Origin: Pelecanus crispus
Lineage: Eukaryota > Chordata > Aves > Pelecaniformes > Pelecanidae
NCBI RefSeq assembly: GCF_030463565.1
Contig: NC_134675.1
Coordinates: 17,567,862-17,631,861, forward strand
DNA: 64,000 bases
Direction of reading: 5' to 3'
In this document: piece by piece, positions 21 through 35,200 of the stretch
Layout: each line of letters begins with the position of its first letter
Position numbering within the stretch: position 1 is the first letter of the stretch
Notes under the pieces: generated by a model
What the model saw: the letters and a program-made list of their open reading frames with translations, nothing else
Databases searched by the model: none
What the model was told of the DNA's origin: nothing
Program-made: the position numbers and the translations under genes

Positions 21-596
21 TGTACTGGTTTTGGCTGGGATGGAGTTAATTTTCTTCATAGCAGCTCATATTGTGCTATGGTTTGGAATTGTGACCAAAA
101 GTGTTAGATATTGCTGAACAGTGTTTACACAGAGTCAAGGCCTTCTCTCTTTCTCACACTGCCCTGCCAGCAAGTAGGCTGGGGGTTCACAAGAAGTTGG
201 GAGGGGACACAGGTGGGACAGCTGACCCCAGCCGACCAAAGGGATATTCCATACCATATGACATCATGCTCAGCAAGAAAAGCTGCAGGGAAGGAGGAGG
301 AAGGGGGGCTGTTCGGAGTTATGGTGTTTGTCTTCCCAAGTAACCGTTACATGTGATGAAGCCCTGCTTTCCTGGAGATGGCTAAACACCTGCCTGCAGA
401 TGGGAGGTAGTGAATGAATTCCTTATTTTGCTTTGCTTATGCGCGCAGCTTTTGCTTTCCCTAATAAACTGTCTTTATCTCAACCCACGAGTTTTCACAC
501 TTTTACCCTTCTGATTCTCTCCCTTATCCCGCTGTGGGGGGAGTGAGTGAGCAGCTGTGTGGTGCTTAGCTGCCTACTGGGGTTAACCCACAACAC
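21..596 (+). mobile_element. ERV LTR, family A, plus orientation
   Basis: Starts TGTACTGGTTTTGGCTGGGA and ends near a ggttaaccca / caaca, the same ends found in the other family A copies at 5511, 32499, 34904, 42899 and 58942. It holds an aataaact polyadenylation-like signal near 461-470. It directly abuts the Polinton capsid relic. No clear target duplication is seen, and no ERV coding region follows, so it is read as a solo LTR. Confidence 0.75.
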
Positions 597-1455
597 AGAC
601 CAACTGATAATCCAGAGCAACAGCTGCTACTCCTACCGCGCCTTCATTGAGTTGCTTCTCAGTTACAGTCATGCCATGACACGCTGTCCACACACTCTTC
701 CACTGGGCTGTTCTACGAAGACACAGCCAGGCTGCAGGAAACAGTCATGCTGGATGGTGTTGGTAATCAGGTGTTTAGGGAATGCTCAACTCTGACAGCC
801 CAGAATAGGAGGACTGAACTGTAGGGACTCTTCCACAGTGATCTGTTCTTTCAAGACAAGCTTTTGTTGAACAACGTGGATATAAAAATTAACCTGATGT
901 GTAGGTTTTGTTCGATGAGCTCCCGAGCAGCAGGAGCCTGCAAGCTGACTACTTATGCCTCAGTGTTTGAGAAGAAGGTGTGGGTGGCACCTGGGTTGCA
1001 TTTGGGACATGCTGAGGCATTACTTATGGAAAATTGTTCCTGGGACAACTGCCCAAGCTTGTTGTTATTGGGTTCATAGATAATGACGCTTTTAGTGGCA
1101 ATTATGCTAAGGACACTTTCAATTTTAAACATTATTATATCAGTTTTGTGACCATCTATGTGGATGGTGAACAAATCCTGGTGAAACCACTGTAGCTTGT
1201 TCAGATTATTGGCAGCCATATGAAAGACCATTCCCTGCTGGTTGACAGGGAGGAGTTCACCCATGCCTATATCCTGTTCCCCTTCAACCTGTCTCCAGAT
1301 CAAGAATGTGCTGACCACTGTTCCCTGATTAAAACAGGGAACCTGAGAGCAGAATTACACTTTACAGGGACCTTGACCACCACCGTTAATATGATTCTGT
1401 ACGGCATATTTGACAACATGACAGAAATAAATGGGAAGAGACCTGCACTCTGACC
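596..1455 (+). pseudogene. Polinton/Maverick major capsid protein relic
   Basis: The plus strand, read in shifting frames, resembles the double jelly-roll major capsid (hexon-like) protein of Polinton/Maverick elements and adintoviruses. Recognisable blocks in order are YRAFIELLLSY (about 630-662), LNNVDIKINLM (about 867-900), VWVAPGLHLGHAEALL (about 978-1025), GFIDNDAFSGNYA (about 1071-1109), FVTIYVDGEQ (about 1146-1175), and FNLSPDQEC, then GNLRAELHF and ILYGIFDNM towards the end. At least two frame changes and in-frame stops (for example the TAG near 1194) break it, so it is dead. The N-terminal part is cut off by the LTR at its left. Assignment is from family knowledge and block order, without a database search. 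Confidence 0.75.
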
Positions 1456-1639
1456 ACATGTGAGAATGGACACCAAACAGCTTTCCTGGTTTCTTGCAGC
1501 AGACTCCCAATGCCAGAGAAACATTTCTGGGCATGTACCCGAGCTACTAGCTCCCTAAGGCCCATGTTTCTCCAAGACCAGCGAGTGTGGTTGTGAATAC
1601 GCATCCACAAAACCAACCTGGAGAGCGCTGGCTAGCAAT

Positions 1640-2230
1640 TTTCATAGAACCATAGAATCATAGAACCGTTTAGGTTGGAAAAGACCTTTAAGATCATCCA
1701 GCCCAACCATTAACCTAACACTACCAAGTCCACCGCTAAACCAATTAAGGGTAGAGTAATAATTAATTTCATGTTTCCTGGCTTGGTGGCTGGATTATTT
1801 TTTTAATGAAAGTAAAAACTAGGAATCATTAAGGTTGGAAAGGACCTCTAAGATCATCAGTCCAACCGTCAACCCAACACCACCATGCCCACTAAACCAT
1901 GTCCCAGAGTGCCACGTCTACCTGTTTTTTGAACGCTTCCAGGGATGGTGACTCCACCACCTCTCTGGGCAGCCTGTTCCAATGCTTGACCACCCTTTCC
2001 GTGAAGATATTTTTCCTAATATCCAACCTAAACCTCCCCTGGCGCAGCTTGAGCCCATTCCCTCTCGCCCTATCGCTAGCTACTTGAGAGAAGAGACCAA
2101 CACCCACCTCACTACAACCTCCTTTCAGGTAGTTGTAGAGCGCGATAAGGTCTCCCCTCAGCCTCCTCTTCTCCAGGCTAAACAACCCCAGTTCCCTCAG
2201 CCGCTCCTCATAAGACCTGTGCTCCAATAA
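1640..2230 (-). mobile_element. CR1 3' end with double tail
   Basis: The minus strand encodes the CR1 ORF2 C-terminal region (blocks [42 protein letters not shown]), followed by two successive CR1 tails: one around 1830-1890 and a second around 1645-1735. They are separated by about 90 bases including a ttaatgaaag / ggctggatt stretch. The 5' part is truncated at about 2230. The copy is about 90% identical at protein level to the inverted copy at 4380-5305. Confidence 0.92.
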
Positions 2231-2510
2231 TTCTCAGGCATAAGAGACAACAAGCAGTTGGCATTCTCCAGAAGACTTTTTATAAAATAACTTTTCCCAC
2301 AGTTGCTAGGCCCTACCAGAACAGCAGAAAAGGGGTGTTTCCATTGCATGCCCATGATCAAAAGCCATAGGGGAGGCTGTTAAAAGTTTTAGTCAGTATC
2401 ATTTTGTCATAGACCACCTTCTGTGTCTTCCAAAGGGGCCTGGTTTTTGTAGCCTGCTTCTCATTGTTCCTGATGATAGAGCCTTGCTCTATCATGATCT
2501 TTTTTAGGGT
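2231..2510. other. Unassigned spacer between CR1 and CR1 fragment
   Basis: No open frame or repeat that I recognise. It lies between the capsid relic and the polymerase relic, so it could be decayed Polinton sequence, but nothing in it proves this. Confidence 0.3.
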
Positions 2511-2514
2511 CATC

Positions 2515-3190
2515 ACTATCTGTATTTACACCATAATACGACCATAATCTCCCTGGAAGGGAGAGAGTTAGCAGCAGCCCTGTGAGGGAGTGATGGACAG
2601 GGTTGATGAGCAAAGGGCCTGGAGTGATGTGAACAAAAAGGAACACAAAATGAACAAAACAGGGCTTAAGCAGAGTTACCTCCAGCATTTGCATGTAAGG
2701 AAAGAAGTGCCTACAAGGCCCCATTATGGAGAAATCTCCCAAATGCTTTCTGGGAATTCAACATGCTGGGGTGCCTCTCTGAAGTGCCTGTGCGTTAATG
2801 CACATATCATGGGGAATAAACATGAGGAATTAGAGACCCATGTGCTGTTGCAGGGCTACAATCTTGTTGGGATCATGGCTCCCATGACTGGAGTGTTGCA
2901 ATGTTCTGTGAAAGAACAGCTGGAATGCATGGAGTTCTGCCTGGGGATGGATGATGAGCCACCTGAGAGCTTATGGGTAAGAATTAAAGAGCAGACCAGT
3001 ATGGGTAACATTGTAGTGGGTGTCTGCTACAGGCTGCCTGATCATGAAGAACAAGTGGATGAGGCTTTCCACAGAGAGCTAGAAGTAGCTTCACGTTCAC
3101 AGGCCCTGGTCCTCATGGGGGACTTCAACCACCCTGAAATCTGCTGAAGGGACAAGACAGCAGAGCATAAGCAATCCAGGAGGTTCCTAC
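2515..3190 (+). mobile_element. CR1 fragment, ORF1/ORF2 junction and endonuclease N-terminus
   Basis: An open frame at 2590-3147 includes CR1 endonuclease blocks: LKCLCVNAHIMGNKHEELE, WVRIKEQTSMGNIVVGVCYR and ALVLMGDFNHPEIC. The continuation (gggacaagacagcagagc) matches the CR1 at about 9186. The fragment stops abruptly at about 3190 and lacks any 3' end, which is odd for a LINE. It splits or borders the Polinton relic. Confidence 0.85.
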
Positions 3191-4075
3191 AAGGCTCTTT
3201 TTCCCTGTGCTTCCCATGAGGATAAATGGCAAGCTATTGTTTCCCCTGTGGGGCATTTGTGCTGGAGCCTGCCAGACTTTCTGCACCCACAGCAATGAAG
3301 AAAGACCCCTTGTGGGCACCTGGTATACCCTGGAACTGAACAAGGCTCTGCAGAATGGCTACAGGGTCTGTGAAATCTATGCTATTTGGCATTTTCAACA
3401 GAGGGATAGCGGTCTTTCATCAGATTATAAAAAACTACAACTCTGCCACAAGCAGGAAGCTTCAGGCTACCCAACCTGGTACACAGATGATGACAAAAAA
3501 GCTAAATAAGTTGAATATTGCAGGCAGAACGAAGACATTGTTTTACAGTCTTAACATATTAAAAAAACACACAAAACACCAAATTGCCAAACTGTTTTTA
3601 AATTCTCTGTGGAGTAAATTTGGTCAGGAGTCCAATCTTCTCTATACCACCATTGTGAGAGAACCAAACAAGCTGTACAGCTACCTCTTTTCTCAAGCTT
3701 ATGATGTGCGTCCATATAATTTTCTCAGTCAGGGTTTGGCCACTATCTTGTGAAAGCATGCCAAAGGATGTATAACCTTGGAGTGCAACACTGGCATTGT
3801 AATAGCCCTCTTAAACACATTATTTGTACATCTAGAGATTTACAGTCTCCTGGGTGTCCTGCAAGATCAATGAGTTTATCATGAGACAGACTCTGTGATA
3901 TTTGTCAGTGGTTCAGGTGACTGGAACCCCCTCCTCAGTGATTATTTCAGGGAGCTGAAGGGCAAGCTGCTGCCAGAGGAGCACATTACTGAGTTTGTTC
4001 TGCCAGGACCCCGAGTCCTTTGGTTACGAGCTGTCTGGGGGAAGATGTTGTTTAAAGACATCACTCTAAATGCAA
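3190..4075 (+). pseudogene. Polinton/Maverick protein-primed DNA polymerase B relic
   Basis: Translated blocks match the palm region of the Polinton family B polymerase. At 3207-3350 one frame gives MRINGKLLFPL and EERPLVGTWYTLELNKAL. Further on in that frame is KQEASGYPTWY. A frameshift near 3500 leads to KLFLNSLWSKFGQ (about 3583-3621), the family motif B, where the usual Gly after Trp is Ser. After a stop at 3751 and a gap, motif C is seen near 3880-3900 as ETDSVIF instead of the usual DTDS form, followed by GDWNPLLSDY and ITEF. The relic ends at about 4075 where LTR sequence begins. Frameshift, stops and the altered metal-binding motif show it is inactive. Confidence 0.85.
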
Positions 4076-4350
4076 CTGTGGCAGGTTCGCCTGGCTACCA
4101 GCCAAACTCTAACCTAGCTGCTCGCTCACTCCGCACTGCAGTGGTTCAGAGAGAGAAAAATATGAAGAACAAGAGTGAGAAAGCTCGTGGGTAAAAGATA
4201 AAGACAGGGAGATCGCATGCTAACTACTGTCATGGACAAAACGGAATTGACTTGGGGAAATTACCTTGATATCTTGCAGATTAAAATAAATATTTAATTA
4301 CTGATTCAGGTAGTGGGAAACAAAACAAACAAACAAACAAAAAAGAAACA
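4076..4350 (-). mobile_element. ERV LTR remnant, family B, minus orientation
   Basis: Starts tgtggcaggttcgcctggct and aligns, with many changes, to the reverse complement of the 3' half of the family B LTR at 9690-10434. Landmarks are aaagctcgtggg, gacagggagatcgc and gacttggggaaatta. It directly follows the polymerase relic, so the tail of the open frame at 3895-4194 is LTR-derived and not polymerase. An A/C-rich simple stretch (4321-4355) ends it. Confidence 0.7.
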
Positions 4351-4379
4351 AACATCTATGTTTGGACAAGCTGGTCTGA

Positions 4380-5305
4380 TGGGCCGGGTCCTGCACTTGG
4401 GTCACAACAACCCCATGCAACGCTACAGGCTTGGGGAAGAGTGGCTGGAAAGCTGCCTGGCCGAAAAGGACCTGGGGGTGTTGGTCGACAGCCAGATGAA
4501 CATGAGCCAGCAGTGTGCCCAGGTGGCCAAGAAGGCCAACAGCGTCCTGGCTTGTATCAGGAATAGTGTGGCCAGCAGGAGCAGGGAGGTGATTGTCCCC
4601 CTGTACTCAGCGCTGGTGAGGCCGCACCTGGAATATTGTGTCCAGTTTTGAGCCCCTCAATACAAGACAGACATTGAGGTGCTGGAGCATGTTCAGAGAA
4701 GGGCAACGAAGCTGGTGAAGGGTCTGGAGCACAGGTCTTATGAGGATCGGCTGAGGGAACTGGGATTGTTTAGCCTGGAGAAGAGGAGGCTCAGGGGAGA
4801 CCTTATTGCTCTCTACAACTACCTGAAAGGAGGTTGTAGCGAGGTGGGTGTTGGTTTCTTCTCCCAAGTAACTAGCGATAGGACGAGAGGGAATGGCATC
4901 AAGCTGCTCCAGGGGAGGTTTAGATTGGATATTAGGAAAAATGTCTTCACGGAAAGGGTAGTCAAGCATTGGAACAGGCTGCCCAGAGAGGTGGTGGAGT
5001 CACCATCCCTGGAAGTGTTCAAAAAACGGGTAGACGTGACACTCTGGGACATGGTTTAGTGGGCATGGTGGTGTTGGGTTGATGATTGGACTGATGATCT
5101 TAGAGGTCCTTTCCAATCTTAATGATTCCTAGTTTTTACTTTCATTAAAAAAATAATCCAGCCACCAAGCCAGGAAACATGAAATTAATTATTACTCTAC
5201 CCTTAATTGGTTTAGTGGTGGACTTGGTAATGTTAGGTTAATGGTTGGACTGGATGATCTTAAAGGTCTTTTCCAACCTAAACGATTCTATGATTCTATG
5301 ATTTA
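4380..5305 (+). mobile_element. CR1 3' part with double tail
   Basis: 5'-truncated CR1. It begins in the RT thumb region ([19 protein letters not shown]) and runs through [20 protein letters not shown] to the ORF2 end at about 5059. Two tails follow: one at about 5085-5130 and a second at about 5215-5305, ending with ttctatgattctatgatt. The spacer holds the same ccagccaccaagccaggaaa segment as the copies at 1640, 28530 and 41600. A single stop at 4649 interrupts the frame. Confidence 0.93.
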
Positions 5306-6558: not shown

Positions 6559-6712
6559 CTGTCCACCAGGACCCCCAGATCCTTCTCTGCCAAGGTGCTT
6601 TCCAGCTTGTTGTCCCCCAGCATGTATTGGTGCATGGACTTCTTCTTCCCCAGGTGCAGGACTTGGCACTTCCCCTTGATGAACTTCATGAGACTTCAAG
6701 AGAGGGCAAGAC
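6559..6712 (-). mobile_element. CR1 fragment (RT region) in block copy 1
   Basis: The minus strand contains the CR1 RT/thumb stretch around the FNKGK-type motif. Landmarks on the plus strand are tgcaggacttggcacttcc and ttgatgaacttcatgag. It is about 150 bases, both ends missing. It is repeated at 35984-36137. Confidence 0.7.
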
Positions 6713-7288: not shown

Positions 7289-7339
7289 GAATAAAATTAA
7301 CTCATCACAGCAAGCTATTCCCTTTTGTTTTGGTAAACA

Positions 7340-16155: not shown

Positions 16156-16408
16156 TCAAAGAGGAGGCTCATTTCCTTTATTATTCTCTTTTAAATTGAG
16201 GTTTTCTAAAGCAACATCTAGAGGCATAATATCTACACAGCCCATAGCACCAAAATCAGCAATCTCTCCCCGTTCATCCTCATCTGAGGAGGAACTTTCT
16301 TCCCGCATCAAAGTGGACAGTAGAAGCTCTTGAACAAACAAGCTGCGGTCCGCCCGTTCGCTTTCCTTTGACTGACGCTCTGCTTCTGACATCTTAGGAT
16401 CATTCAAC
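16156..16408 (-). CDS. KCMF1: KCMF1 exon 7 (C-terminus and stop)
   Basis: The coding part of the last exon is 253 bases: one base completing Arg, then [12 protein letters not shown], the acidic run [13 protein letters not shown], the conserved [20 protein letters not shown], and the end KGNEPPL with TGA at 16158-16156. The terminal Pro run is shorter than in mammals. The acceptor is atgcag at 16414-16409 with a good pyrimidine tract (tcttctctctttctg). The reading frame stays open upstream through the intron to 16617. Confidence 0.95.
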
Positions 16409-19400
16409 CTGCATAGCATCACAGAAAGAGAGAAGACGGGCTTAATAATATCATCAACAAAATGGGCTTTCACTAATTGCCTAAACAGCTGGACTGACGC
16501 GTGCTGAATAACATCTGAAAGCCATTCCTTTGAGAAACAACCTAGGTACTGCTGCACTTCTTTTGACATGTACAGATCTGACAACACCTGGCACTCCTGA
16601 TGCAAGAATACAGACATTTAACAAACTTGTTCCTAGATGCTTCAAGAAACTTCATAGAAGTGGATTCTAAGGCTGAAGGAAAAAAAAATTAGCTATTTCT
16701 GAAGTTTCTTTCCCTTCAGAGGGGTTTTGTTTTAAGGGGTGTTAAAATTCTCTAGTCATCCCTTAAGTGCTCATTTTGTCCCCAGGACAACTTCTAAATG
16801 CAAGCATGACACAAAATACATTACTACACACATAATGCCCAGAGATTCCTAAAGCACAGTACATCATTCACTTCACTTATCAGTGCATGCACCATCACCT
16901 AATAGAAGCAAGGAAATTGCTTGCTCCAGTTCTATCCTCGCTCACAAGATCAGTGACTGACATTTGCAGATACTTTCATTAAAGTTACTATTTTCAAAAA
17001 GTTTTGGATTGAGATATTATCATAAGTTTTGATAAAAATCAGCATGACGGCAATAACTTGTCCCAGCCCAGGTTTCTTGACACAGAAACTGTTTAAATGC
17101 CTGTGCTCTTTCTCAACATCTAATTGAACACCCCCCCCCCCCCTTGAATCCAGAAAATCAGTATTCTAAACCTCCTAAAAGAGCGGGAACGAGAGTGGGC
17201 AACTCTTCTATAGCAGAATGGACTAGATGATCGTTGTAGGTCCCTTCCAACTGGACTATTCCATTCTACAGAACTCTAGGATCTAACTATACTTTCTGAA
17301 ACAGATAATGTATTCTGCTTATTAATAGAACATTCCTTATTTGCTTTTTTCATCCAAAATATTTTACATATAAACCTCTATTCAGCCTTCAGCCTTCATT
17401 AAAGATTCATTTCCTATTTAATAAACTACCTTTTAAGTTCCCTCCCCTCACATTATCAGTTTGAAACATATTATTGTAAAGGCTCTTGTTTTATCAGAAG
17501 TAGTAGGGTAAACAAGCACAGTTTAACAAAGTAATATCCCTTATGTTTCTCTACAAACTAAGAAACAGCAAGTAATATTTATTCATTGCCTGGGAACAAA
17601 CACACAGCAGGGTTGAAAAGGAGACGTTACAAATGCAAACAAAAGCATAGTATCTCAACTCCAAACTTCATTAGGGATCTGGCAGTAGTTTCACTGAATT
17701 CTATGTCCATAACAGGACCAAGGAAAACAGAAATGGCAGAAGAGTTAAACCCACAGAACAAGTTACCTTGTAAGAAGAAACTGGGAATTCTGTATAGTCT
17801 GCTGACTGTTTTCTGTGTTAGATGTATTGGTTGCTGCTATAGATTGTGTAAGAGTGGTGGGGATGCTGCTTGTGTTAGTGCGTCTAGTTGCATTGCGTGC
17901 AGTCTCCAGTTGTTGTCTTGCTGCCTGTGCATGCTGTCGCTCCAACTGCAGTTGCATCTGCAGCTGCTGTAACTGAGAAGCAGAAGGGCCAGAAGAATTG
18001 AGCTGCCCTGCAGAACGTCTCACGCCTGATAACTGAGATAAAAGCTCTGCCAGAAGAGAGAGAAATTTCTACAGTGAAAGCTGCTTAAATACATATCACA
18101 CAACAGCATAAATATGTCCCAAATACCAGTATATCAATTCCTTTGCTTTCTAAAACCTTTCATCAATGAAATTAATGAACAAATCGTATTGATTTGAAAA
18201 GCTTCATGGGCTATCCATTACAAGCATCCCATGTCTCAAAGCCCATAGGGTAAGGAAGATTAAGAATCATCTAGAGTAAAGAACTGTGCATAAATAGGAA
18301 AGTCAAAGCTTAAAGCTTTTTAAACCAATAAGAGTCAACCTATGGGGAATACCATATAAGCAATATCCTGTGCAACAATTTTCTAAAATTTTATCAAGTC
18401 AAAATAGTTATTGACTAATAACTATTCACTTCAATTCTGACTTCAGTTGGTGGTTTTATATCCCCCCCATGCACCTTCAATGCATATTCCAGAGGGAAGC
18501 TGCGCTGCAGAGAAGACAAATATTACAACATCATTTCAGACATTTTTAGAAAATATTCAGTTCAGAAAGGGTTTTCAAATGTTGTATTATATGAAAAATA
18601 TCTGACCACAGCAGGGCTTTTTTTGTGAGACTTTCAACCACTGCTGGAAAGAGAAATTGTAACAATAAAAAAAAAAAAAAATAAGTCTAGCCTGGATTCC
18701 TTTCCTCCAAAGTTCAAGACTGTGACAAATTCTGTCCATGCTAAGCATTTCCCAAAATAAACATTAATAATAAGTTACTGCTCAGTGATTTACTACAGAT
18801 TATATTCCACACAAAGTTGCAAGTGCTACTTTGTTGTGTTTGATGCAAGGAGGGCAGAAGTAGTAGATTATTTTGTTCCCCTATCTATCCAACCCTCATT
18901 AAAGCTGCAAGTTGTTATTACAGGTCACAAAAATTTTTCTTCCATCTTACTTTCAAGATATAATCCTTTGAAACTAGGCTTTTCTTAGGGGAATAAAGCA
19001 CAGTGCAGTAGCTCTTTGCACCAGGAACACTTGGAATGTCAACAGTAAATGCTCAAGTCACTTTTAATCAGCACAGCTAATCATATCAAGATTAACTACC
19101 AATAATATTTTATTTCACTAATTACTGATAACCACCACAAGAAGAAAAATAAATAAATAATGTTTACAGGTCTGTTACAAGCACAAGTTCTAACTTCTGG
19201 TAGTATGTACTAATTATTACCCCAATACAAAGGAAGACTTATAACACTGCCAGGTAGGACAGATGTATTTATCCTCACTGTTTGTAAGATCACTTTGAGT
19301 ACAGCTTAACAGAACCCTGATAGCAGATGTGAATTTGAGACACAGGCTTGGCATGACACAGACATCCAGCCAGGCTGCACTACATTCTCTGAATGAAAAA

Positions 19401-22400
19401 TAAAAAACCCAAAAAAACAAGACTCAAAGGAATACCATTTTATTACATGTGCTCCTAAAATGGGAAGGCCTTGTGAGGCTGAAACAAACCAAGGCAGCTG
19501 CTTCACATTTAACTCAGCTGAACTAACGCCCACTGTAATGGTAAGAGGAAGTCTTGCACTCCAGAACACACAAACATCCTTCCTTTTCCTTCTTGCACCA
19601 ACTTTAGTGCTTTACAGACCCATGACCTAACTTAACTCACTAAGATGACAGAAAATTTTTCATCCTCTTTTGCTGGGATATTTTTAGTAGTAGGAGTACA
19701 GCCAGCAGGTCCCGGGAAGTGATTCTTCCCCTCTATTTGGCACTGGCGAGGCCACATCCAGAGTGCTGTGTCCAGTTTTAGGCTCCCCAGGACAAGAGAC
19801 ACATGGACATAATGGAACAAGTCCAGTGAAGGGCCACCAAGACGATCAGGAGGCTGCAACACAGTACATGAGGAAAGAGCAGGAGAACTGGATTTGTTCA
19901 GCCTGGAAAAGAATACTTTGGAAGATATCTTATTGCTGTCTGAATCTACCTGATTGGAAGATACAGAGAAGACTAAGCTAGACTCTTCTCAGAGGCATAC
20001 AGTAATATGACAAGAGTGAGACAAGGGAACATGGGAAATTCCAATTACATCCAAAGGGGTTTATTTTTTGTATCCCCCCCCCCCCACTCACCCCTTTTAA
20101 AACATTAAGGTTTTTAAATAGTAGAACAGGTTGCCCAGAGAGGTTGTAGGAACTCTGTCCTTGGAGGCATTCAAAACTCAACTGAATGAGACCTTGAGCA
20201 ACCTGATCAACCTGATCTAAATAGATCTCCTTTGAGAAAGGGGCTGGAAATAGACAACCTGCAGAGGTCAATTCCAAACTAAATTTTTCTATTATTTTTC
20301 TGCCATTTCAATGAGTTAAATCAGCTCACAGAGGGCCTGAAGAGCAGCCAGCACAACAGAGGCAAAGGAACTATGCCTATGGAAAGGTGGGGGGGGGGGG
20401 GGGGTGTGTGTGTGTGTGGAGCTGCAGCTTCCTCTTTCAAAAGCAATGCACTCTTAAGTTGGTTCACTGCCTCTCAAGGAATCATAGCCTAACAATAAGA
20501 AGCTCCAGTTTAAACACTCATGTCCTTCCAGTGTCTGAAGCAAAGGCAGATAATAGCAGGAACTTAGATAAGTGCAGGAAGTTCTGAAGTTTCCCTGACA
20601 CTTATCATCTTTCACTATACAAGTGTAAGATTGATGTCTTAAGATTTTACACTAGGACAAATTATAGCTCTTTTAAAAATCAACTTCTTGGTCAATTTTT
20701 ATTTTTACCTCTTTATAGAGAACTTATTCTTGAAAATCACAAAGTTGAAAAAATACTTACAGACTATATCTGTAAATCCTAAAAATATGCCTTTGTGATT
20801 GCTGGAAGTTAAAAATAAGACATCTTCCCCTTCAAAATTCTCCTAAATCTGACCAAAATATGACACACAAATCAAAGAATTGAGTTGCAAAGGAACCTTT
20901 AAAGATTGTCTAGTCCAACCCCCTTGCCATGGGCAGAATCATCTTTTGCTAGATCAGGTTGCTCAAAGCCCCCTCCAACCTGACTTTGAACACTTCCAAT
21001 GTTGGGGCATCCAAAACTTCTCTGGGCAATCTATCCTAGCATCTCACCACCCTCATAGTGAAAAAAATATCTTCCTTATGTCCAATCTAAACCTACCCTC
21101 TTTCAGTTTGTAATTATTGCCTCTTGTCCTGTCACTACAGGCCCTGGTAAAAAGTCACTCTGTGTCTTTCTTATAAGCCCTCTTTAATTACTGAAAGGCT
21201 GCAATAAAGTCTCCCCGGAGCCTTCTCTTCTCCAGGCTGAACAACCCCAACTCTCTCAGTCTTTCTTCATACGAGAGGTGTTCCAGCCCTCTGATAATTT
21301 TTGGGGTCCTCCTCTGGACCCGCTCTAACAGATCCATGTCTTTCCTGTGCTGGCGACCCCAGAGTTGGACGCGCACTGGATGCAGGACCTTGCATTTGGC
21401 CTTGTTGAACTTCATGAGGTTCACATGGGCCCACTCCTCAAGCCTGCCAAGGTCCCTCTGGATGGCAGCCCTTCCTTCTAGTGAATCAACTGCACCACTC
21501 AGCTTGGTGTCATCTGCAGACTTGCTGAGGGTGCACTCAATCCCACTGTTTACATCGTTGATGAAGATATTAAATAGTATTGGTCCCAGTACGGACCCTT
21601 GAGGGACACCACTCATTACTGGTTTCCATTTGGACATTGAGCCATTGACTTAGAACTCTTTGGACGCAGCCTTCCAGCCAATTCCTTATCCACCTAACAG
21701 TCCATCCATCAAGCCCAGTTTAGAAGCAAGAATATTGTGGGAGACCATATCAAAGGCCTTACAGAAATCTAGGTAGATGATGTCTGTAGCTCTTCCCTTG
21801 TCCACTGATGCAGTCCCTCCATCATAGAACACCACTAGATTAGTCAGGCATGATCTGCCCTTGGTGAAGCCACGTTGGCCATCTCTGATCACCTCCCTGC
21901 CTTCCATATGGTTCGACATCTTTTCCAGGAGGATCTGTTCCATGATCTTACTGGGCACGGAGGTGAGACTGACTGGTCGGTAGTTCCCAGGGTCCTCCTT
22001 TTTACCCTTTTAAAAAATGGGCATGACTTTTCCCTTTTTTCAGTCACTGGGGACCTCGCCTGACTACCATGACTTTTCAAATATGACGGAGAGTGGCTAG
22101 GCAACTACATCAGCCAATTCCCTCAGGACCCTGGGATGCACCTCGTAGGGTCCCATGGACTTGTGTATGTTCAGGTTCCTCAGGTGGTCTCAAACCTGAT
22201 CTCCTACGACGGCAGGGAGTTCATTCCCCCAGTCCCTGCCTTGAGGTTCAGGGGCTTAAGGGATGTGGGAAGAGAGATTACTATTGAAAACTGAGGCAAA
22301 AAATCGTTGAGCACCTCAGCATTCTCCACATCAGTTGTCACTAGTTCACATGTCTTATTTATCAGGGGTGGGTACATTTTCTTTTGTCTTCCTTTTCTGG

Positions 22401-23214
22401 CCAACGTACCTGTAGAAGCCCTTCTTATTATTCTTCGTACCCCTTGCCAAATTCAGATCCAACTGCGCCTTAGCTTTCCTGGTCCCATTTCTACACATCC
22501 AGGCAGCATCCCTATATTCTTCCCAGGATACATGACCCTGGTTCCACTGCCTGTGCATTTCCTTCTTACACTTTAGTTTGACCAGGAGGTCCTTACTCAG
22601 CCATGCTGGTCTCCTGCCTTCCTTGCCTGATTTCTTGCACATGGGAATCGAGAGCTCTTGCGCCCTAAGAAAGATATCCTTAAAGAGCTGCCAGCCCTCT
22701 TCTGCTCCTTTGTCCCTGAGGGCAGTTTCCCAGGGGGTCCCATCCATTAATTCCTTAAAGAAGTGAAAGCTTGCTCTCCTAATATTCAGGGTCCTGACTC
22801 TACTCTTCACCTGGCCCATATCCCTCAAGACTGTGAATTCCACCAGGGCATGATCACTGCAGCCCAGGCTGCCACCAATCTTGACAGCCCTAATGAGTTC
22901 ATTTGTGTTGGTAAGCAACAGGTCTAGTAATGCTTCTCCTATGGTTGGGCTGTCTATCATCCGGATTAAAAAATTATCCAAATTTTCCAGTAGATGTCAG
23001 GGTGATTGAAGTCCCTCAGCAGGATCAGAGCCTGCAAGCGTGATGCTTCCTGTAGTTGAAGTAAGAACGCTTCATCATCAGGTTCCCCTTGATCAGGTGG
23101 CCTGTAGTAAACACCAACCACAAGGTTTCCTTTGTTGGCTTGGCCCCTAAGTTTTACCCATAATCTCTCAACCTGTTCATCACTGTTTTTCAAAGACAGC
23201 TCTGTGCAGTCAAT

Positions 23215-23252
<38 letters not shown>

Positions 23253-26200
23253 TAGAGGGCAACCCCCCCACCCCTCCTTCCTTCTGAACAGTTTACAGCC
23301 ATCAATTGCAGTGCTCCAGTCATGCGATTCATCCCACCATGTTTCAGCAATAGCAATTAGATCATAGCTTTCTAGCTGCACAGTGGCTTCCAGCTCCTCC
23401 TCTGTTACCCATGCTGCATGCATCTGTATAGAGGCACTTCAGCTAGGCTACCTCCCTTGTCACCTTTTTAGAGGAACATGCCCTAATTCCTTTGAGGCTT
23501 TTCACAGATGTTTCCCTGTTGGTTCCTAATACATCAGCAGCCCCTGGCTCCTGTCTGGTGCTCAGAACTCCAGCCCCTTCCCCCACACTAAATCTAGTTT
23601 AAAGCCCTCCTTGTAAGTCTGGCCAGCTTGTTGGTGAAGACCCTCTTGCCCCACTTGGTCAAGTGAATCCCATCAGCTCCCAACAAATCCAGCTTCTCAA
23701 AGGCAGATCCGTGATCACAGAAGCCAAAGCCTTGAGTATGGCACCAGCCACGCAGCCAGGCATTCACCTGTTCAATTCTTCTCCTCCTTCCTGAACCCCT
23801 TCCTCTGACTGGCAGGATAGAGGGAATACCACTTGTGCTCCAGATCCTTTTAACGTTGCTCCGAGGGACATATAGTCTCTTTTGATGGTTCTAAGTTGCC
23901 TTGTCGCAGTATCATTGGACCCTATGTGGAATAGTAGGAGCGGATGATAATCTGTAGGGTTCACCAGGCTCTCGGTGACGTCGTGAATGTGAGCTCCTGG
24001 TAGGCAGCAAACTTCTCTAGAGAAATTGTCTGGATGGCAAATGGGTGCTTCGGTGCCTCTCAGTGAGGAATCTCCATTTACTAATACTTTATGTGCTTTT
24101 CTGGTGGCACTGGTTCTAATGTGGGTGGATGGTTGGATCAACTTTGCATGGTCGGCTTTTCCTGGATCTTGTCCGTTACTCATGTGCTCTTTGTTCTCCA
24201 GCCCCAGAGCATCATCTCTGTTATGCAGGGGTACTTTAGGGGAAGGGGGAAGGTTCTTCCTTCTGCCCCGAGCAGAGACAAGAGTCCAGTCTCCTTCATC
24301 TTGTGAGTTACTTGTGTCAGTCAGCTCAAGGTTGAATTCAGGCTTACCTTCCCATTGCATAACCTTGTGGTGGTACATCTCCCCCTGCCCCTGTTCTTCT
24401 GTTCTGTTTTTCCCCTTCACTTCGGCCGCTTTACAATCTCAGGAATTCCAGGCCGCAGCTTTTGTGTAGCGAGTTGGTCAGTTAAGCGCCCCTTAATTGT
24501 ACCAGAAACTCCTACATGGCTGGAGCAGAGAGCGGCTCTGTTCTTATCAACATTCATATTATGGCTAACGAGGGGAACGAGAACAAACAGCTACCCCGGA
24601 CAGCCTTGAAACAGGGTGGTATCATCACTGCTGGAATTCTAACAACAAGCCGACCCGAATCGTGGCTCGGATGGAAATTTACTGGTGATTAAAGTCAATC
24701 ATCTCACAATCCTATAAATGGCAGTCCTAAGCGAGGCCCTTTGAGCTCTCCTGGACCACCACGGGCTGCACCAGCATCTCCCTTGAATCGAAATGTCTCT
24801 CAGAGTCAGCAAAAACTAGCAGATTCTGAAAGTCTGCTGCCACCAGAACTCCATTGCCGGAGATTGACAACGGAGCCTGGGCTGCTGATATTCTTCACTC
24901 CTCGAGACTCTACTCTTGCCCATTGAGAAATGCCAAGGCATTAGACGTATTTCACTAAACTCGAGGGGAATTTTTAACAGGTATACTATTTTCATATATG
25001 CATTTATAGTTGTAAGTGTGCATGCATGAATCAATTTAAGTAGTTTTGTAGATGTATGATTTAATTTTAAAAGGAGTTTTATATTGCTGTATTATTCTTA
25101 TAGCATTACTCTCCTAAACCGTTGACCAAGTCTGAGACTAAGAGTGGGCCCAGCCGCACCTAGGCTCCTCTCTGAGAAGGAGTTTAGAAAGCAAGGGGGT
25201 CCATTCTGAACCTCATGACTCAACGGGAGGGCCCCCCCCCTTGCCTTTATTCCATATATATGCAATGCTTTTATGAATCATTTTAACTCAGTGTGATTTA
25301 ATTCTCTTTTATGTGCTTCTATGTAGTAATAGAGTGAACCTTGCCATCTTCGAATCTGTCACTAAGTCACTGTTTTGATCAATTTTGTCTAATCACTTTA
25401 TTAATCATTGATGATTGGGTGCTATTAAAAATATTATAATCAAATTCTGCAATTCGCTACAAGTAAATTCTAACTTTTACTAAATCAAACTGTGTAAAGT
25501 CACTCATTCATAGTGAATTGACATAATCAGCAGGATTCACAGACCTGCATTCGTGACAAACCTTAAGGCAGGGCTGTTGCTCAGCTCTATATAAAATACT
25601 TATTAAAATACAGTTATGTAAGAATTTTAAAAGAGTTAAAAAAGACCTCCTAAAATCAGCAAGCCTGTCATCCAAACTGTAATCTGAAAGTAAACTGAGC
25701 ACATTTTAAATGTCTATCAATAATATTCGAATTGAACCAATTTCATCTTGATGAACTCAAGTACAGCACTTGGTTTGTGCTAAAAAAATTAAGATTCATC
25801 TCTAACACCTCTATGCACATGGCAAATTAAAGCTAGATGCACTGAAGTAGGTAATAGTGGTTATAAACAATTACATTTAAAAATACATACATACATATCA
25901 TATGAGGAGAGGCTAAGAGATCTGGGACTCTTCAGCCTGGAAAAGAGAAGGCTCAAGGGGGAGGAATCTTATCAGTGTATATAAATACCTGATGGGAGGG
26001 AATGAAGGAAAGGGAGCCATACTCTTCTCTGTACTGCCCACTGACAGGACAACAGGCAATGGGCACAAATTAAAACAAATTAAATCCATCTGAACACGAG
26101 AAAACACTTTTTACTGTGAGGGTGGTCAAACGCTGTAAGAGGTTGCAGAGTCCATCCATGGAGATATTAAAAAGCTGACTGGACATGGTCCTGGGCAACC

Positions 26201-29200
26201 TGCTCTAGGTAGCCCTGCTTGGGGGGGGCGGTTGGACTAGATGATCTTGAAAGGTCCCTTCCAACCTCAACCATTCTTTGATACCACCTGTGGACAGGTC
26301 AGTCATCAGAATGAGCCTAGAAGTCTTTAAATGTAAAAGCACAAGCTAAAGGGGCAGTGTTTTTAATTTCAGAAGTTCCGGGTTCAATCCCTGTAAACAA
26401 TCCAATTAAGGATACTTTTCATCAGTAAACACCCATCAATTATGACATTGGGAAGCATATATATTTTTTTTTTCAAAACACAGAAAAACAAGGCAACTAT
26501 TATCATCTTGGATTTTGTTTCAAAGTCTATTTAAAGACTCTGAGCTAAAATCAGTGGTTACAGCTCTTACCAGCTATAGGATCCATGGTTTCTCTGTTGC
26601 TTGGAGAATATGAACTCTGAGAAGATGAAAGCCCACCAGTGGAACTGCTAGTAAAGTGCATGTTTGATCTACGTGCACGGGGGCCTCCCAAACCCCGGCC
26701 TGGGTGAAACATTCTACGTACGTGCCGAACACCACTAGATTCATCGTAACCAAGCAGTTAAGAAAAGTCTTTTGCTATCAAGTATTAAACAGCAAGAACA
26801 CTTACTAGGTGGAATAATCAGGCAACACACTATTCCTCATTCATAAAACAATGATTCAACTTTATAAGTGTAATGCAATCATAGCTATGGTGCCAGTCAG
26901 ACCTATAGATCTGAACCCAAGGCACCCAGGGCTGCTTGCACCAATTTAATCTTTCCCAGGCTTTTTATCATGTCTAAAAAATGTCAGGATGGATTTCCTG
27001 CCTTCTGGATCAAAGTTTTCTACTAGGTAATTTAAACTGATGATGCATATTCAGCAGAACACATTACTCAACAGACATAAGGATTTTAACATCAAAATTG
27101 GGAAAGAAGGGTATTTAAATACTGAAAATAATCTACAAAGTTTTATTGCCATTCTTACCAAGAAAACACAGTAATTATTGCATTTTATACTTTTATCCAA
27201 GGAATTTCACCCACTCCAGTCTTCAAGGAATTGCAGGTCAACAGAGAATTCAGCACTTCTGTCATACTCCTTTGCTTCATCTTCCCTCTCTTTCTCCACA
27301 CAAATTCCATTTGCTCCAATTATGAAAACAAGCCCTTTCACTTTCTTTATTTCCCACATTTCTTAGGATGTCTATGACTTGAAATGAAATATAAGCTTTT
27401 TCATACATACTAAGAGACTATCAGCAAATCATTTAAAGATGATCTTTCCCAGAACAGTGTTAACATATGAGTTCTCCCAAGACAGTCTAGCTAAAGCTTC
27501 CTTTTATCTTAAGAAGCACTAGTGCAATTAACTACTAAGCTAGGAAATAACATACTTGGACATATCTTATTTTTCCAATTTCTAAATTAGTAGTTTTAGC
27601 TCACCTTATCTCCAATTTTCTTATTTTCAAAAATAGCATGTTTATCACTTGTATAAAATCTATTATTTGTATCAGACTGGTGCCCAATGTACTTATCACA
27701 CAACGTACAGTTATGGTGTAGAATTCATTTCCTCATGATATCACTGAGTTGAGAAATTTAAGACTGAAAAATTATTAGACTTCTTTTGGCAAGTAAGAAT
27801 ATCCAGTTACTATAATAAATGAAAATGCCCCCATTTAGGATTTTTTTAAAGTAAACTTGGGAAATAAGATAACTAGAACATCCTTAATATAAATCCTTTG
27901 AAAAATTCCAGCCTTGGTCTCATTTAGAAAAGGATCTTAGTAGCTTGCTAACTGCACCTTTCAAAGTGTTTTTAAGATAAACAACATTATTTAAATACTA
28001 GTTAAGAGTATATTGAAGTCTCACCCAACTATGCTGGGGTTAGAAAAGCATTTGGAACTCTTAACTCATTGCAAACTTATACTGAAAACAACCAAGCTAG
28101 AACCATTTACATGATCAAGACTAAAGTCATGTTTTAAACAGTAAAACAGTTGAAAATTGTTTAAGAAAGAAACTGGAATTTAAAGAGCTGTCCAGAGTCT
28201 CCAAGGATAAAGGTGATATCTTACAGTGGCTGCGCAGGATTCTTCACAAGAAATATGTGCAGCCATTTAAAACAGCTTAAAATCCCTTCTAACTGCTACA
28301 CAGAAGACAATATCCTTTCCTAAACTGCTAGCAACTGGGCAGGGGGAAATCTCTCCCCCTTTTTCTTCCTTTTAGTCCTAGCTGTCAGAAGACATGAAAT
28401 AGCACCCAACATGGAACAGCTAGTCCAGAAAAATTTTCCCTATCAAGTTTTGTGGACTTGGCAACACTGATTGCTAAAGCAACACTGTACAGAAACTTCC
28501 ACATGCATTTTCTATAATTATTTATAACATAGAATCATAGAATCATTTAGGTTGGAAAAGACCTTTAAGATCATCCAGTCCAACCATTAACCTAACACTA
28601 CCAAGTCCACCACTAAACCAATTAAGGGTAGAGTAGCAATTTCATGTTTCCTGGCTTGGTGGCTGGATTATTTTTTAATGAAAGCTCCCCCCATCAGTTG
28701 TGTGATGACTGACATTGTGGCCTTACTCAGTAACTGAAAAGATTATTCTAATTTCTCTAACTCTTATGTAGCTAGTAATAAACACACATTTCCCAATTAA
28801 AAGTTATCTGACATCACTGATGTGGAAGGGGGAGGAAAAGCTCCAGAAGCGTGAATTCTAATCCAACACCTCATCCACTTCAATAGGAAGTTAATTTCAC
28901 TGTGTAATTAGGACTGACAATTTAAATGTTAACAAATTTAAATGTAAATACAGATCATAACCAAAGTGAAACTATTTCCTCTAAAGTTGCTAGCAGTAGA
29001 TATAATGAACTTGAGTTGTTAGGCCTTTTTTTTTCTTTTAAGAAACCCTGAACAAAAAAGGCACTATCAAATTACAGTAGGAGTGTATTTTTTTTGAGAT
29101 ATAGAAAGATAAATAATTTATAGGAGATCGCTTAATGAGAGTTTTTCATGATGGCCTGTACTTCCATGAAGTAAGAGTACCTTCTGAAACTATGTTGTAG

Positions 29201-32200
29201 GTATTTGTACAGCAAAAAACAAGCCACATTACTATTCCTAAGACCAAGTAACACAAAAGAAAATTGTACTTAAAGTGCAAAGAAACTGTCAGTTTGAGCT
29301 CTTCAGTCATTGAGAGTAGTTATATCACTACAATCTGCAGATAACTGAAAGATAGCCCTAATCCCTAGGAAGTCTCCTGATAGCTCTTCTAGTTATATCT
29401 TAAAAAAAAAGTCAATAAATAACAGGCTGAAACTACCCTATTGAAATATAGTGATAAAATTAATCAAATGCTTAAAATCACTCAAAGTTCAAAGCATTCT
29501 CTAACACCTTTGCTTTTGGTGAAATTTACTGCTTTCAGTCTCGTAATTATCTATAATACACTATTGCATCTGGATTGCTGCTTTCCCATACACAAAATGG
29601 CATCAGAACTAATGACCAAGAAGGGTAAAAACTGCAGTGCAGAAAGAAGCAGCTGGGTGTCAAAACCATCTTTTAAAGGTTTTGCTATCAGGAATAAAAC
29701 AAAAACACACACCCACGTTGTCAAGCTACACCTAAAGCCCATTCACAGTCTGATAGATATAAATATATATACATATAAAAAATTCAGACAGACAGATCCC
29801 CTATAACTAAACACCAATTCTAAAAAATAAGCAAAAGTGATGTAGCCACTTGACTACAGAAGTCAAAACAAGTAGTTACAGCTATCATAAGGAATAGTCT
29901 ATCCCTTTTCCCTCAACTTAAGAAAGGATATTAAATCTCTAGGAGCTCTGTGTTCCAGTGTAAGATGAGCTGCAAAGTCATCTGTGACATGATTAGGATC
30001 CCCTCCAGGTAATGCTGCACATATTGGACAAATCTGAAACAACAAAGTGAGAAAAAAACAAACACAACCAACTTTACACAAACCACAAAACACATAATTC
30101 AGAGTTGATCACGACAGGGATTCTTATACTTTAAATATCACATTCTAATCCTATATCTAAACAGCCACAGGTTAAAACAGTAAATGTGTTCAAATGCAGC
30201 TGTTAATTTTAGTATCTTTTTAAGACCCACTTTTCCTTGTAATTATGCTTTCAATAATACCATGGAAACCAAAAAGCAAAATTTTCAAATCCTATCTGCA
30301 ATGTTTCAGCTTTCAAACTTGTCTTTCTATGTCAATTCCAGCACAGACAGTAGGTCTGGTTACACAGGATTACTGCTTGTATGTACCTGCATATGACATT
30401 ATCAAGTTCATTTACTGCTCTTTGAATCCCCAAGCAACTTCTCATTCATCTCACCAGAGAAGTGTGGGAAGGAGAATGAAACCAGATATGAATATTCATT
30501 AAAGTATCACCACTGAGACCACCCACTGAGGTAACATGCAAGTAGAGATTTGGCAGAGAAGAGAAACTCCTTATTCCTACCAAGTATTTGGGGAGATGGC
30601 ATTATAGTTTTGTTTTTTCCTTAAGCCTAAACACACATTTTAAAAAAAGTCTAGGACACTTACTGCCATAGCAACCTTCATTTATTATTTTTATTTTTCC
30701 TCCCAGTGACTTTGCATCCACCTGAGAGAAGTGTGCCTTAAAAGTCCTCTGCAACAGTTTTGCAGGCCAGCCTTAAAGTTTGACAGATCACAGGTTAATA
30801 AGCCAGAAAGGAGAAACTTCCACACAGTATTTAGGTTTTTACTCTTCCAGGGAGATCAACCTGGACTTTGCAACTGATAAGACTGTAAACTAAGGGGGAG
30901 ACCCCAGACAACAGACTGGGAGGGGTGAGGGAATCAATAGAACCATACAAACTGATAAAGAGACACGCAGGGGGAAGGGAGAGCAGGAAGGAACAAAGAG
31001 GAGGGTAGACAGAAAGGGGTATAAAGTGGGCCGGTTGCATGTAAAATAGAGCCGGTCAGTATGTTTGTCTGGCTGAGCCCTGAGCCTGATCACCGCAGTC
31101 TGTCCCGTCTTCTTATAAAATCTTAACAATCTCTCTGCATAATCTCACTCTCTACCCCATGTGTATGTATGCTGCAAGGACTAAGTGCCAGCTACTGGTG
31201 AGACCTGTGTATGTGTGAATGAAATTTGGTGTCAGCTACTGGAGTCAGACTGGGGCGGTAGGTGCCCCTGTGGCCTGTGGTGTCAGCTACTGGAACAAGC
31301 ATCAGTAGTTGGAGGGGCCATAGCTCTCTAGACCTAGGGCAGGTACTACAGACTTCATGCCTGGAGTGCTAGCTACTAGGGGACTGTCATGAGTGGATTC
31401 GGTGCCAGCTACTCCAGTCGGACCAGGGGTGCAAGCACCCCTGGCCTGTGGTGTCAGCTACTGGACTGAGTGGGGTCTTATCAGCTACTGGAGCGAGTCA
31501 TAGTCTCTGTCTTCAGCCACTGGGGTGGGAATGGTGTGTGTCCCAAAAAAACAGCTAATGGGGGGGGGGACACACCAGCATGAGTGAGGGGCCCAGCACC
31601 GGTAGTTGGAGCAGGACCACCAGTCACAGCCCATGTGGTGCCTGGTGCCAGCTGCTGGGGAAAAGGGGGGGGGGGGGTGGGTGTCTGCATCTTCCCCAAA
31701 CCTGGTGTGCGTGTGTATTGGCTAGCAAACTTCAAGCTGGACTAGCTAATGAGTAGGGAGGAGCCTCAAGTCTAGGCAGGAGTAAGAAGCAGGCAAGGGT
31801 CTGTGCTGGTATGCCCAGGGGGACTTGCGAATGTGGAGTGCCTGTGGGATGAATGTGTGAGTGCATGTGTGTTTGCTAGTGAGCATCAATCTGGACTAGC
31901 TGGCAAGTAGGAGACCTGTGAAGCAGGTAAGAGTGCCTGAGATCCAGGCAGGGGTACTGGACAAAGGGGGCCATGCCAGTACTCGAGGGATCACAGTGAA
32001 TGGGTATGTGCTTGTGAATCTAGAGAGCATCATGTGTGTACCTTCACTAGTGACCTTCTATCTCTTCAGCTGAAGAGGAAGAAGGGGATGTGGCTGCCTA
32101 TACTTATGTTTTATGCAAGCCCTACATGTAGGTGCTGTTGAAGGCATCTGTGTGACGGGCCATGTCAGCGTCCTCTGTGTGTGTACGGGTCTCTGGAATA

Positions 32201-35200
32201 CGTGCTCAGCTTCACTACTGGTTGAACCTGCAAATGGGAAAGTGGCAGCTGCATCCCTCAGCCTAAGCAGAGGCCCCAGGTCCCCAGGCTGGACTTCAGC
32301 AGCTGAGCAGAAGGGAGTCCTGTGCTGGAGAAGGCAGCCACCTTCTTAACATCCCTTAAAATTAACAGATCACCATATTACTTTGAATGAAATCCAGGAG
32401 ATGATTAAAAAGCCTTAAGGCAGTTAGGCTCCAAACATCACAGTTGACAGTTTCTAGATCTGTTCCCTTATTACCACCACCTCCCTGTTTATACAAGTAT
32501 ACTGGTTTTGGCTGGGATAGACTTAAATTTCTTCATAGTAGCCCATATAGTGCTATGCTTTGGCTTTGTGACCAAAAGAACATTGATAACACACCAATGT
32601 TTTAGCTATTGCTCAACAGCTCTCACACAGCATCAAGACCTTTTCTGTCTCTCACACTGCCCCAACAGCAGATAGACTAGGGATGTACAAGAAGTTGGGA
32701 GGGGACACAGGTGGGACAGCTGATCCCAACTGACCAAAGGGATATTCCATACCACATGACATCATGCTCAGCAATAAAAACCACAGGGAAGAAAGAAGGG
32801 GGGATGTTCAGAATTATGGCGTTTGTCTTCCTAAGTAACCATTATACGTGATGGAGCCCTGCTTTCCTGGAGATGGCTAAACATCTGCCTGCCAATGGGA
32901 AGGAGTGAATGAATTCCTCATTTTGCTTTGCTTGTGTAGACAGCTTTCGCTTTCCCTATTAAACTGTCTTTATCTCAACCCACAAGTTTTTGCACTTTTA
33001 CCCTTCTTATTCTCCCCCGCCATCCCACTAGGAGCAGGGGGGGGAGCGAGCAAGCAGCTGTGTGGTGCTTAGTTGCCAGGTGGGGTTAAACTATGACCAG
33101 TGTTTTTGGCACCCAGTGTGGGACTCAAAGGGTGTGAGATAAATAACAAATTTGACCAGAGCATATTAAAGGGAACAATATAAATATTATAGCTGTTTAA
33201 CCGTTGCTGACCACAATATTAACTTATCTGTTCTCAATATTAGTTTATCTGATCTTTGCCATGCTCCCTTTTTTGATGTACATGTTAAAGACACTTTTTG
33301 GCTCGAGAAGAGACCAGAAGCTGCCCCCATAGCTGACAAAGCCAGTTCCAATCAGCTCCAAGACAGACCCACCCCTGGCCAAAGCTAAGCCAACCAGAGA
33401 TGGTGGTGGCACCTCTGTGATAACATATTTAAGAAAGGGTAAAAAAGCTGCACAGCAGCAGCTGTGAGAAAGGAGCGAGGAAATGTGAGAGAAACAACCC
33501 TGCAGAAACCAAGGTCAGTGAAGAAGGAGGGGGAGGAGGTACTCCAGGCAGCGGAGCAGAGATTCCCCTGCAGCCTGTGGAGAAGACCATGGTGACACAG
33601 GTTGTCCCCCTGCAGCCTATGGAGGACCACATCAGAGCAGATATCCACACTGCAGCCCATGGAGGACCCCACATCAGAGGAGATGGATGTGCCCTGAAGG
33701 AAGCTGCAGCCCATGGAGAGGAGCCCATGCAGGAGCAGGTTTTCTGGCAGGAACTGTGACCTCGTGGGGGACCCATGCAGGAACAGTCTATTCCTGAAGA
33801 ACTGCAGCCCGTGGGAAGGTCCCATGTTGGAGCAGTTCATGGACTGTATCCTGTGGGAGGGACCCCATGGTTTCAGTCTCATTTACAAGTTCTTCCTCTT
33901 CTTCCTCCTCCTCTCCTTGTGATGGCCCTGATTTTCATCCTCCCTTTCTAAACGAGCTGACTTTCACTTCCAAGATTTCTTCTTGTGTACAGGGGTGACT
34001 GATACCGGCATGGGTTGGTCCCCTGCAGTATCCGCCTTGCCTGTCATGGGGGTTGGAGTAGCCGCAGTGCCTGTCGCTTTGTTGTCAGATCCAGAGACCT
34101 TCTCTTCCCCTTGAGGGTTCTGAATAGTGTTGAACAGGGCTCGGTAGGCATGGGCAAGGCCCCAGCACATTGCAGTGATTTCTGTCTCTGGAGTTGCCAG
34201 GGTGACAACATACTTTTTCCAAATACTTTACTAGTTCTTCAGGATTCTGCACTTGTTCAGGGGTGAAGTTCCAAAACACGGGAGGTGCCCACTGCCCTAG
34301 GTACTTGCCCATGCTATCCCACATACCCTGCCACTCATAACTATCCAGCCTTGGGGCAGATCTCTGGATGATATTCTTAAATTGCTTACTAACCTTTGTC
34401 AAAACCAAAACAGTATTCCCAAGAAGTATCAATAGAAGTATCTTAACTGCCCAGGGATGTTCAAAATACTGAAAAGTTATTGTAATGAAGAAGGAAACAT
34501 CATAGAAGAAGGTAGTGAAGGTGCCCTTCTGTATTTACTCCATAAAAAACCTCTCAGAAGAAGTATAATTGCTGATTGTCTCCATGAGGTGCTACCCGAA
34601 GTACAGTAATGGTTTCAGTACAAAACCCAAATACCAAAGAATGCTCAAGGTCAGTGTTTTAATAACAAATCTCCCAGGCAAAACATCACTAATCACTGCA
34701 GAACACAGCAGACTGCAAAAACCAACACCAGGCTTTAACACGTACAGCAAAAAATGGAGCATGGTACAGATCAGATAAAGTAAGATCGAGAACAGATGAA
34801 TCAATATCGTGACCCGCAACAATTAACAAATTCCTCAATAAGCTCTGGTTAATCTGTTATTATCTCAGACCCCTCGTGCCCCACGTTGGGCACCAAAAAG
34901 GACTGTTTTGGTTTAGTCCCTGTCGGCAACCAAGCACCACACAGCTGCTCACTCACCCTCCCCCCACTGGTGGGATGGGGGAGAGAAACAGAAGGGCAAA
35001 AGTAAGAAAACTTATGGGTTGAGATAAGAACAGGTTAATAACTGAAATATAATAATAATAATAGTAATAGAAAATATAATGAAAAGGAGAACGACGAGAG
35101 AGAGAGAAACAAAACCCAGGAAAAAACAAGTGATGCAACTGCTCACTACCCACCAACCAATGCCCAGCCAGTTCCCAAGCAGCGATCGCTGCTCCCCGGC

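Follow-up and report, generated by a model that had tools for sequence, protein, structure and literature searches.

What is the capsid-like sequence at the start of this stretch of Pelecanus crispus DNA, and how much of a virus-like element survives around it? The stretch (64,000 nucleotides, hereafter the window) covers C45:17567862-17631861, contig C45 being one of the 310 contigs of the 1.314-Gb genome that was searched. We are highly confident that the sequence belongs to a dead, rearranged vertebrate-type Polinton/Maverick, which lies downstream of the host gene KCMF1 on what is most likely the bird W chromosome and whose parts span ~13 kb. The initial annotation had placed a capsid relic beside a host gene: KCMF1 does lie about 12 kb away, but the capsid block is only a small part of the ~13-kb relic. 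Beyond that block, protease, ATPase and polymerase remains occupy 1458-4076, and the rest of the element lies upstream of the window, in a stretch of C45 designated L012.

A capsid gene split by a retrovirus

Alignment of a 435-residue turtle major capsid protein (MCP; P0011) to the window by tblastn gave three blocks in the right order, each in its own frame, with a joint E of 3e-81 (Table 1). Relative to P0011, the relic shows alignment gaps of 3, 23 and 14 residues and two in-frame stops, both TAG. Elsewhere in the 64 kb, the same query gave five other matches, with E from 0.67 to 7.6. Dinucleotide-preserving shuffles of 596-1455 produced some match in 138 of 200 cases, the best reaching 22.3 bits against 188 bits for the real sequence. 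These results bear out the initial annotation, which had described capsid blocks following one another at 596-1455 with frame changes and stops, and the capsid similarity ends at its end point, 1455. The N-terminus of the gene (amino acids (aa) 1-111) was found 2.2 kb upstream, outside the window, at C45:17565925-17566255 in two frames (L012 7926-8247 holds aa 1-108).

The two parts of the gene are separated by an endogenous retrovirus. Its long terminal repeats (LTRs) end within MCP and, across the empty site, the MCP frame resumes at codon 107, so the retrovirus inserted into the MCP gene; position 596, where the initial annotation began, is therefore the far edge of the retrovirus, the first base past the LTR. 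The five bases flanking the insertion are identical at 4/5 positions. The LTR pair diverges by 21% with one aligner (420/529 ungapped positions identical) and by 26% with a second (387/523 identical, Kimura two-parameter distance (K2P) 0.33). Assuming a neutral substitution rate of about 2e-9 per site and year, the pair would be ~60-80 million years old. Because the middle of the pair aligns poorly and the element is possibly mixed, the sequence divergence is taken to mean only that the retrovirus is probably tens of millions of years old, with large uncertainty. The Maverick would then be older than the retrovirus; the relic itself is dead and old, its age being estimated from this later insertion.

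A protein search with one frame of the relic (1016-1450, with X at the stop) yielded 236 candidates, of which 101 proteins had an E of 1 or lower. A sea turtle protein matches best (E 1.1e-54; 65% identity, covering 96% of the query), and the named matches, from turtles, gharial, lizards, snakes, amphibians and fishes, are mostly annotated ‘uncharacterized protein F54H12.2-like’; among the 101 listed, none bears the name of a known host protein. We take the F54H12.2-like name to denote the Polinton capsid, a reading backed by the modelled fold of the MCP family, which matches viral capsids. Built from 16 database relatives (mean pLDDT 69, pTM 0.72), the model found the Sputnik, iridovirus and PBCV-1 capsids as its best matches among solved structures, with mavirus also listed, and adomavirus, adintovirus and MELD-virus proteins among its best matches to predicted viral structures, which suggests a double-jelly-roll capsid. 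The Polinton/adintovirus-type, hexon-like identity proposed initially is thus upheld by the protein search, the fold model and the neighbouring element genes. Searching the PDB by sequence gave no match, nor did Pfam with four MCP pieces or with full-length relatives; as far as these sequences go, no Pfam model detects this MCP family.

Remaining genes and architecture of the element

Further genes were identified by comparison with Maverick copies in the same genome: one at 14.70 Mb on the putative W (L019), one at 87.04 Mb on C1 (L020) and two more (L017 and L022). Their coordinates are given in Table 1.

Table 1. Features of the Maverick relic, its later insertions and the nearest host gene; positions refer to the window unless L012 or C45 is named
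Feature	Position	Strand	Remarks
Integrase (INT) piece	L012 772-1095	+	58% and 77% identity to two L019 pieces
mCP-position block	L012 1089-1360	+	One tblastx block to Z copy; named by position
PW-position gene	L012 7402-7917	+	172 codons open; named by position
Endogenous retrovirus, 5' LTR	L012 8245-8826 = C45:17566244-17566825		Upstream of window; starts within MCP
Endogenous retrovirus, 3' LTR	21..595	+	TG..CA ends; insertion within MCP codon 107
MCP relic, aa 107-431 of 435	596..1450	+	Blocks 598-669 (aa 107-130), 678-1043 (aa 132-255), 1034-1450 (aa 279-431); three frames; TAG at 822-824 and 1193-1195
Protease gene (PRO) start, broken	1458..1647	+	Named by place after MCP
CR1-type long interspersed nuclear element (LINE), 3' part, later insertion	1648..2226	-	95.3% identical, inverted, to 4725-5303
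Packaging ATPase gene (ATP) start, P-loop	2235..2379	-	Pfam matches below cut-off; placed beside polB as in L017 and L022
polB C-terminal tail, original orientation, in front of ATP	2380..2529	-	Matches L017 8213-8450, E about 1e-23
LINE endonuclease fragment, later insertion	2572..3147	+	Pfam Exo_endo_phos E 0.012, below cut-off
polB body, inverted relative to its own tail	3191..4076	+	Collinear with L017 7264-8157, E 8e-102
CR1-type LINE, later insertion	4298..5303	+	
KCMF1, nearest host gene seen	16159..44519	-	Frames with coding exons 16159-16617, 17766-18068, 44214-44519; database matches named KCMF1

The sequence directly after MCP shares 53.6% identity (E 4e-19) with the post-MCP frame of the C1 copy, and a crane protein, P0078, runs from MCP into the same sequence. 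The polB body was also recovered by a polB search of the genome (E 8e-35 and 5e-13). Its match to PF03175 (E 0.0028, 17.1 bits) is below the cut-off of 25.8 bits; the L017 polB pieces score above it, at 31.7 and 29.7 bits, and the L017 segment that matches the tail extends the polB frame in L017. Together these matches point to the type B DNA polymerase of vertebrate Mavericks, for which protein priming is only predicted. The retrovirus-like integrase expected of the class is represented by the INT piece, which matches the two L019 pieces at E 2.5e-25 and 1e-12. The PW-position gene matches five of the ten loci searched, all five broken. LTR and CR1 blocks also lie upstream; the LINEs at 1648-2226 and 4298-5303 we likewise presume to be CR1 elements.

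INT, the tentative mCP block, PW, MCP and PRO lie on the plus strand, ATP and the polB tail on the minus strand, and the polB body on the plus strand again. Read against the published Maverick modules, given in section 7 of PMC8097293 as polB-ATP-PM-PZ facing INT-mCP-PW-MCP-PRO, this sequence layout is consistent with two convergent modules. In both L017 and L022, polB continues into ATP on a single strand; together with the published architecture, this order indicates that the window copy carries an inversion, one breakpoint of which falls within polB. Of these three copies, only that of the window has the inversion. INT and the last polB piece lie about 13 kb apart, later insertions included. 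An element with eight intact open reading frames is ruled out by the stops, frame changes and gaps in MCP; polB is similarly damaged, and the retrovirus splits MCP.

Several results weigh against the assignment to Mavericks. The ATP start matches Adeno_IVa2 best in Pfam (E 0.006), followed by Pox_A32 (E 0.035) and 14 more P-loop families, all below cut-off. A protein search with polB, the query region of which comprised 73/97 residues, gave 10 candidates and no relative. One L019 INT piece matches the rve profile at E 4.7e-5 and 24.0 bits, below the 32.6 cut-off, and the second has no match to rve. The PRO piece, PW and mCP have no profile match in Pfam, nor does the 298-aa frame of L020; tblastn of L012 with two L019 mCP pieces found nothing at E 0.01, so mCP rests on the one tblastx block; PZ and PM were not found at the locus. 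The class assignment was made by gene content and order, and terminal inverted repeats and the 6-bp target duplication form no part of its basis. Were the whole a host gene or a chance similarity, the Pfam blank on the MCP pieces would be expected, but the database names among the 101 matches, the shuffle scores and the further element genes alongside make this next to impossible. It is also very improbable that the PW frame of the window copy has been kept by selection, as a viral protein in host use: the frame stays open where all five matching loci are broken, but the C1 copy carries a 298-codon open frame (MCP end and PRO) beside a part with 12 stops, and long open stretches therefore persist elsewhere in broken copies. 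The open PW-position frame is possibly due to chance.

A decayed Maverick thus remains the preferred identity. If the element lived as its family does, it would have integrated with its own retrovirus-like integrase and been copied by a protein-primed DNA polymerase, while the ATPase could have packaged the DNA into a double-jelly-roll capsid matured by the protease. After insertion, coding would have been lost as the retrovirus entered MCP at codon 107 and LINE and LTR elements cut other parts; stops, frameshifts, deletions and the inversion inside polB would then have accumulated. The relic is now without evident function.

The host chromosome and the distribution of Maverick copies

The last exon of KCMF1, searched against the genome (4 candidates), gave three matches: an identical, inverted pair on C45 and a copy with 91% identity on C46. 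KCMF1 is thereby confined to C45 (22.2 Mb) and C46 (86.8 Mb; C46:55704868). Database matches to the gene number 689, and the best 12 of the 120 listed come from birds of several orders. Of 11 DNA matches of the window to the region around KCMF1 on C46, 9 form one collinear series (window 13809-30596, 69-82% identical). KCMF1 is described as a known Z/W pair in birds in the relevant part of PMC4278454, and PMC7599627, in the portion drawn on here, places it in the oldest sex-chromosome stratum, with a single origin in the bird ancestor. We therefore read C45 as most likely the W and C46 as the Z, a naming against which it counts that it rests on one gene.

C45 carries an inverted, near-identical duplication (window 6658-16617 and C45:17656834-17666797); window 6658-9449 is 99.8% identical to the stretch L033, and the last exon of KCMF1 is the same in the two arms (100% identity). 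The Maverick relic lies outside the duplication arm as far as traced. On the minus strand, window 5953-6786 and 35381-36211 hold nearly identical long translated frames, two very similar repeat copies ~29 kb apart.

The genome was searched with MCP (49 matches; 56 candidates, all scored) and with the L017 polB piece (20 matches; 29 candidates, all scored). Merged at 25 kb, the MCP matches form 18 loci: six on C45, three each on C46 and C1, two on C2, and one each on C5, C10, C15 and C20. Merged by hand, the polB matches form 12 loci: five on C45, two each on C1 and C5, and one each on C46, C3 and C18. C45 makes up 1.7% of the assembly. With an inverted pair on C45 counted once, it holds 5/17 MCP loci against 0.29 expected by length (binomial P 7e-6) and, without the query's own locus, 4/11 polB loci against 0.19 expected (P 2e-5), P values that assume independent loci and even detection, although elements may lie broken into distant pieces and the W may decay more slowly. 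C46, with 3/17 MCP loci against 1.1 expected (P 0.10), shows no clear excess. When both lists are merged by hand, C45 has 9/25 loci. A further count, 3/7, was restricted to loci picked for retrieval and was set aside.

The inverted pair (L004 and L005, C45:9.665 and 9.700 Mb) is 99.95% identical over 3,726 bp and has an MCP relic in both arms. MCP aa 306-384 are matched five times at G000:C15:1588232-1642975; the first four of these matches are spaced about 10.03-10.08 kb apart, and the whole looks like a tandem array with a capsid fragment.

Trees were built on about 150 aligned columns; IQ-TREE was run without the C2, C5 and W 17.05-Mb copies, which were too short or divergent, and FastTree kept them. 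The bird copies and a crane protein form one group (SH support 0.94 in FastTree; ultrafast bootstrap 92 in IQ-TREE, with the three copies left out), to which a gharial copy is nearest (0.86, FastTree), in agreement with the polB tree in the part of PMC8097293 used here. The copies sit on long terminal branches (0.13-0.69, IQ-TREE), and the window MCP shares 65-72% identity with five turtle proteins and 42-69% with seven copies in its own genome. Such sequences fit old, separate insertions followed by decay. Two ‘hypothetical proteins’ on one contig of the crane Grus japonensis, P0078 and P0098, are Maverick MCP relics, one of which continues into the protease start. P0078 forms a group with the window copy and the W 9.66-Mb copy (SH 0.80). 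The two crane proteins are not supported as orthologues of one copy, and neither is tied to the window locus.

Two alternatives bear on how Mavericks came to be abundant on C45. The excess could reflect a few elements split into distant pieces, ancient segmental duplication or relics that stay easier to recognise because the W decays more slowly, in place of a real preference or better retention, an explanation to which we give serious weight, a little short of even. It draws on the inverted pair and on the duplicated KCMF1 last exon, which show that C45 does duplicate itself, and on the short MCP or polB parts that are all several C45 loci hold. Yet 5/17 remain when the pair is counted once, polB gives the same picture, and protein identity reaches only 42-63% among the four C45 copies compared, which are hence not recent duplicates of one another. 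As for the window copy, it may have inserted before Z/W recombination stopped here and been lost later from the Z, and not entered the W afterwards. The old, singly originating KCMF1 stratum leaves little time between the two orders of events, and old Maverick loci also occur on the Z; but the MCP-PRO, ATP, polB and PW-MCP start segments and the MCP proteins found no match in the 40 kb that surround KCMF1 on C46, INT not being among the segments and the W flank possibly rearranged. We consider this earlier insertion unlikely. That the bird W is a general refuge for DNA-virus fossils and not only for retroviruses, with Mavericks kept or still inserting there after nearly vanishing from the autosomes, is a tentative proposal that we hold to be possible, if doubtful.

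Relation to known systems

Adintoviruses, reportedly treated by Starrett in 2021, appear to share the hexon-like MCP fold, adintovirus and MELD-virus entries being among the structural matches of the model. Adintoviruses and polinton-like viruses are named in the part of PMC11089739 drawn on here. Unlike them, the window copy is a host-integrated fossil only, and IMG/VR scans gave no relative. Two IMG/VR loci had matched the same 16 residues; the L001 match lies in a frame resembling a phage terminase and is due to chance.

Vertebrate Mavericks, bird relics included, have been described (Barreat & Katzourakis 2021, PMC8097293). In the sections of that paper used here, they share with the window relic the MCP family, the gene set and the two convergent modules, all bird copies are said to be degraded, as this one is, and bird copies group with crocodilians. 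The window copy differs in its host and locus, apparently undescribed in those sections, its W-like chromosome, its partly inverted polB and the retrovirus inside MCP. Chicken and turkey Polinton remnants on chromosomes 2 and Z (Guizard 2016, PMC4992247) resemble it in their broken INT, MCP and polB, as reported in the passages at hand, and C2 and Z-like copies also occur in the present genome, a parallel drawn by chromosome alone; those passages mention no W copy, which sets the window relic apart.

The avian W has been described as a refugium for endogenous retroviruses (PMC8310711), and the excess of old mobile DNA on a non-recombining W seen here is of the same kind as in the text consulted. 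The excess here, however, is of a DNA-virus-like element, and the main text of PMC8310711, as far as available, names neither Polinton nor Maverick. A Polinton-derived marker on the platyfish W, cited by its title, is likewise Polinton sequence on a W, but in a fish with an unrelated sex chromosome. The literature searched gave no account of Mavericks on a bird W, most subscription journals being outside reach and most items judged by title or the start of the abstract. Bird Mavericks are already published, and the W excess is the less expected part.

The relevant passage of PMC9683012 calls it a mystery why Mavericks became extinct among birds and mammals. To this the window locus adds a large bird relic on a hardly recombining chromosome, where nested later insertions allow events to be put in relative order. 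Should other birds show the same W excess, long-read assemblies of females would be the place to find and date Mavericks, and surveys of male or short-read genomes would have undercounted them. If the refuge reading is true, W assemblies would hold the best record of when birds lost their Mavericks: the W, a known refugium for retroviruses, may preserve DNA-virus fossils too.
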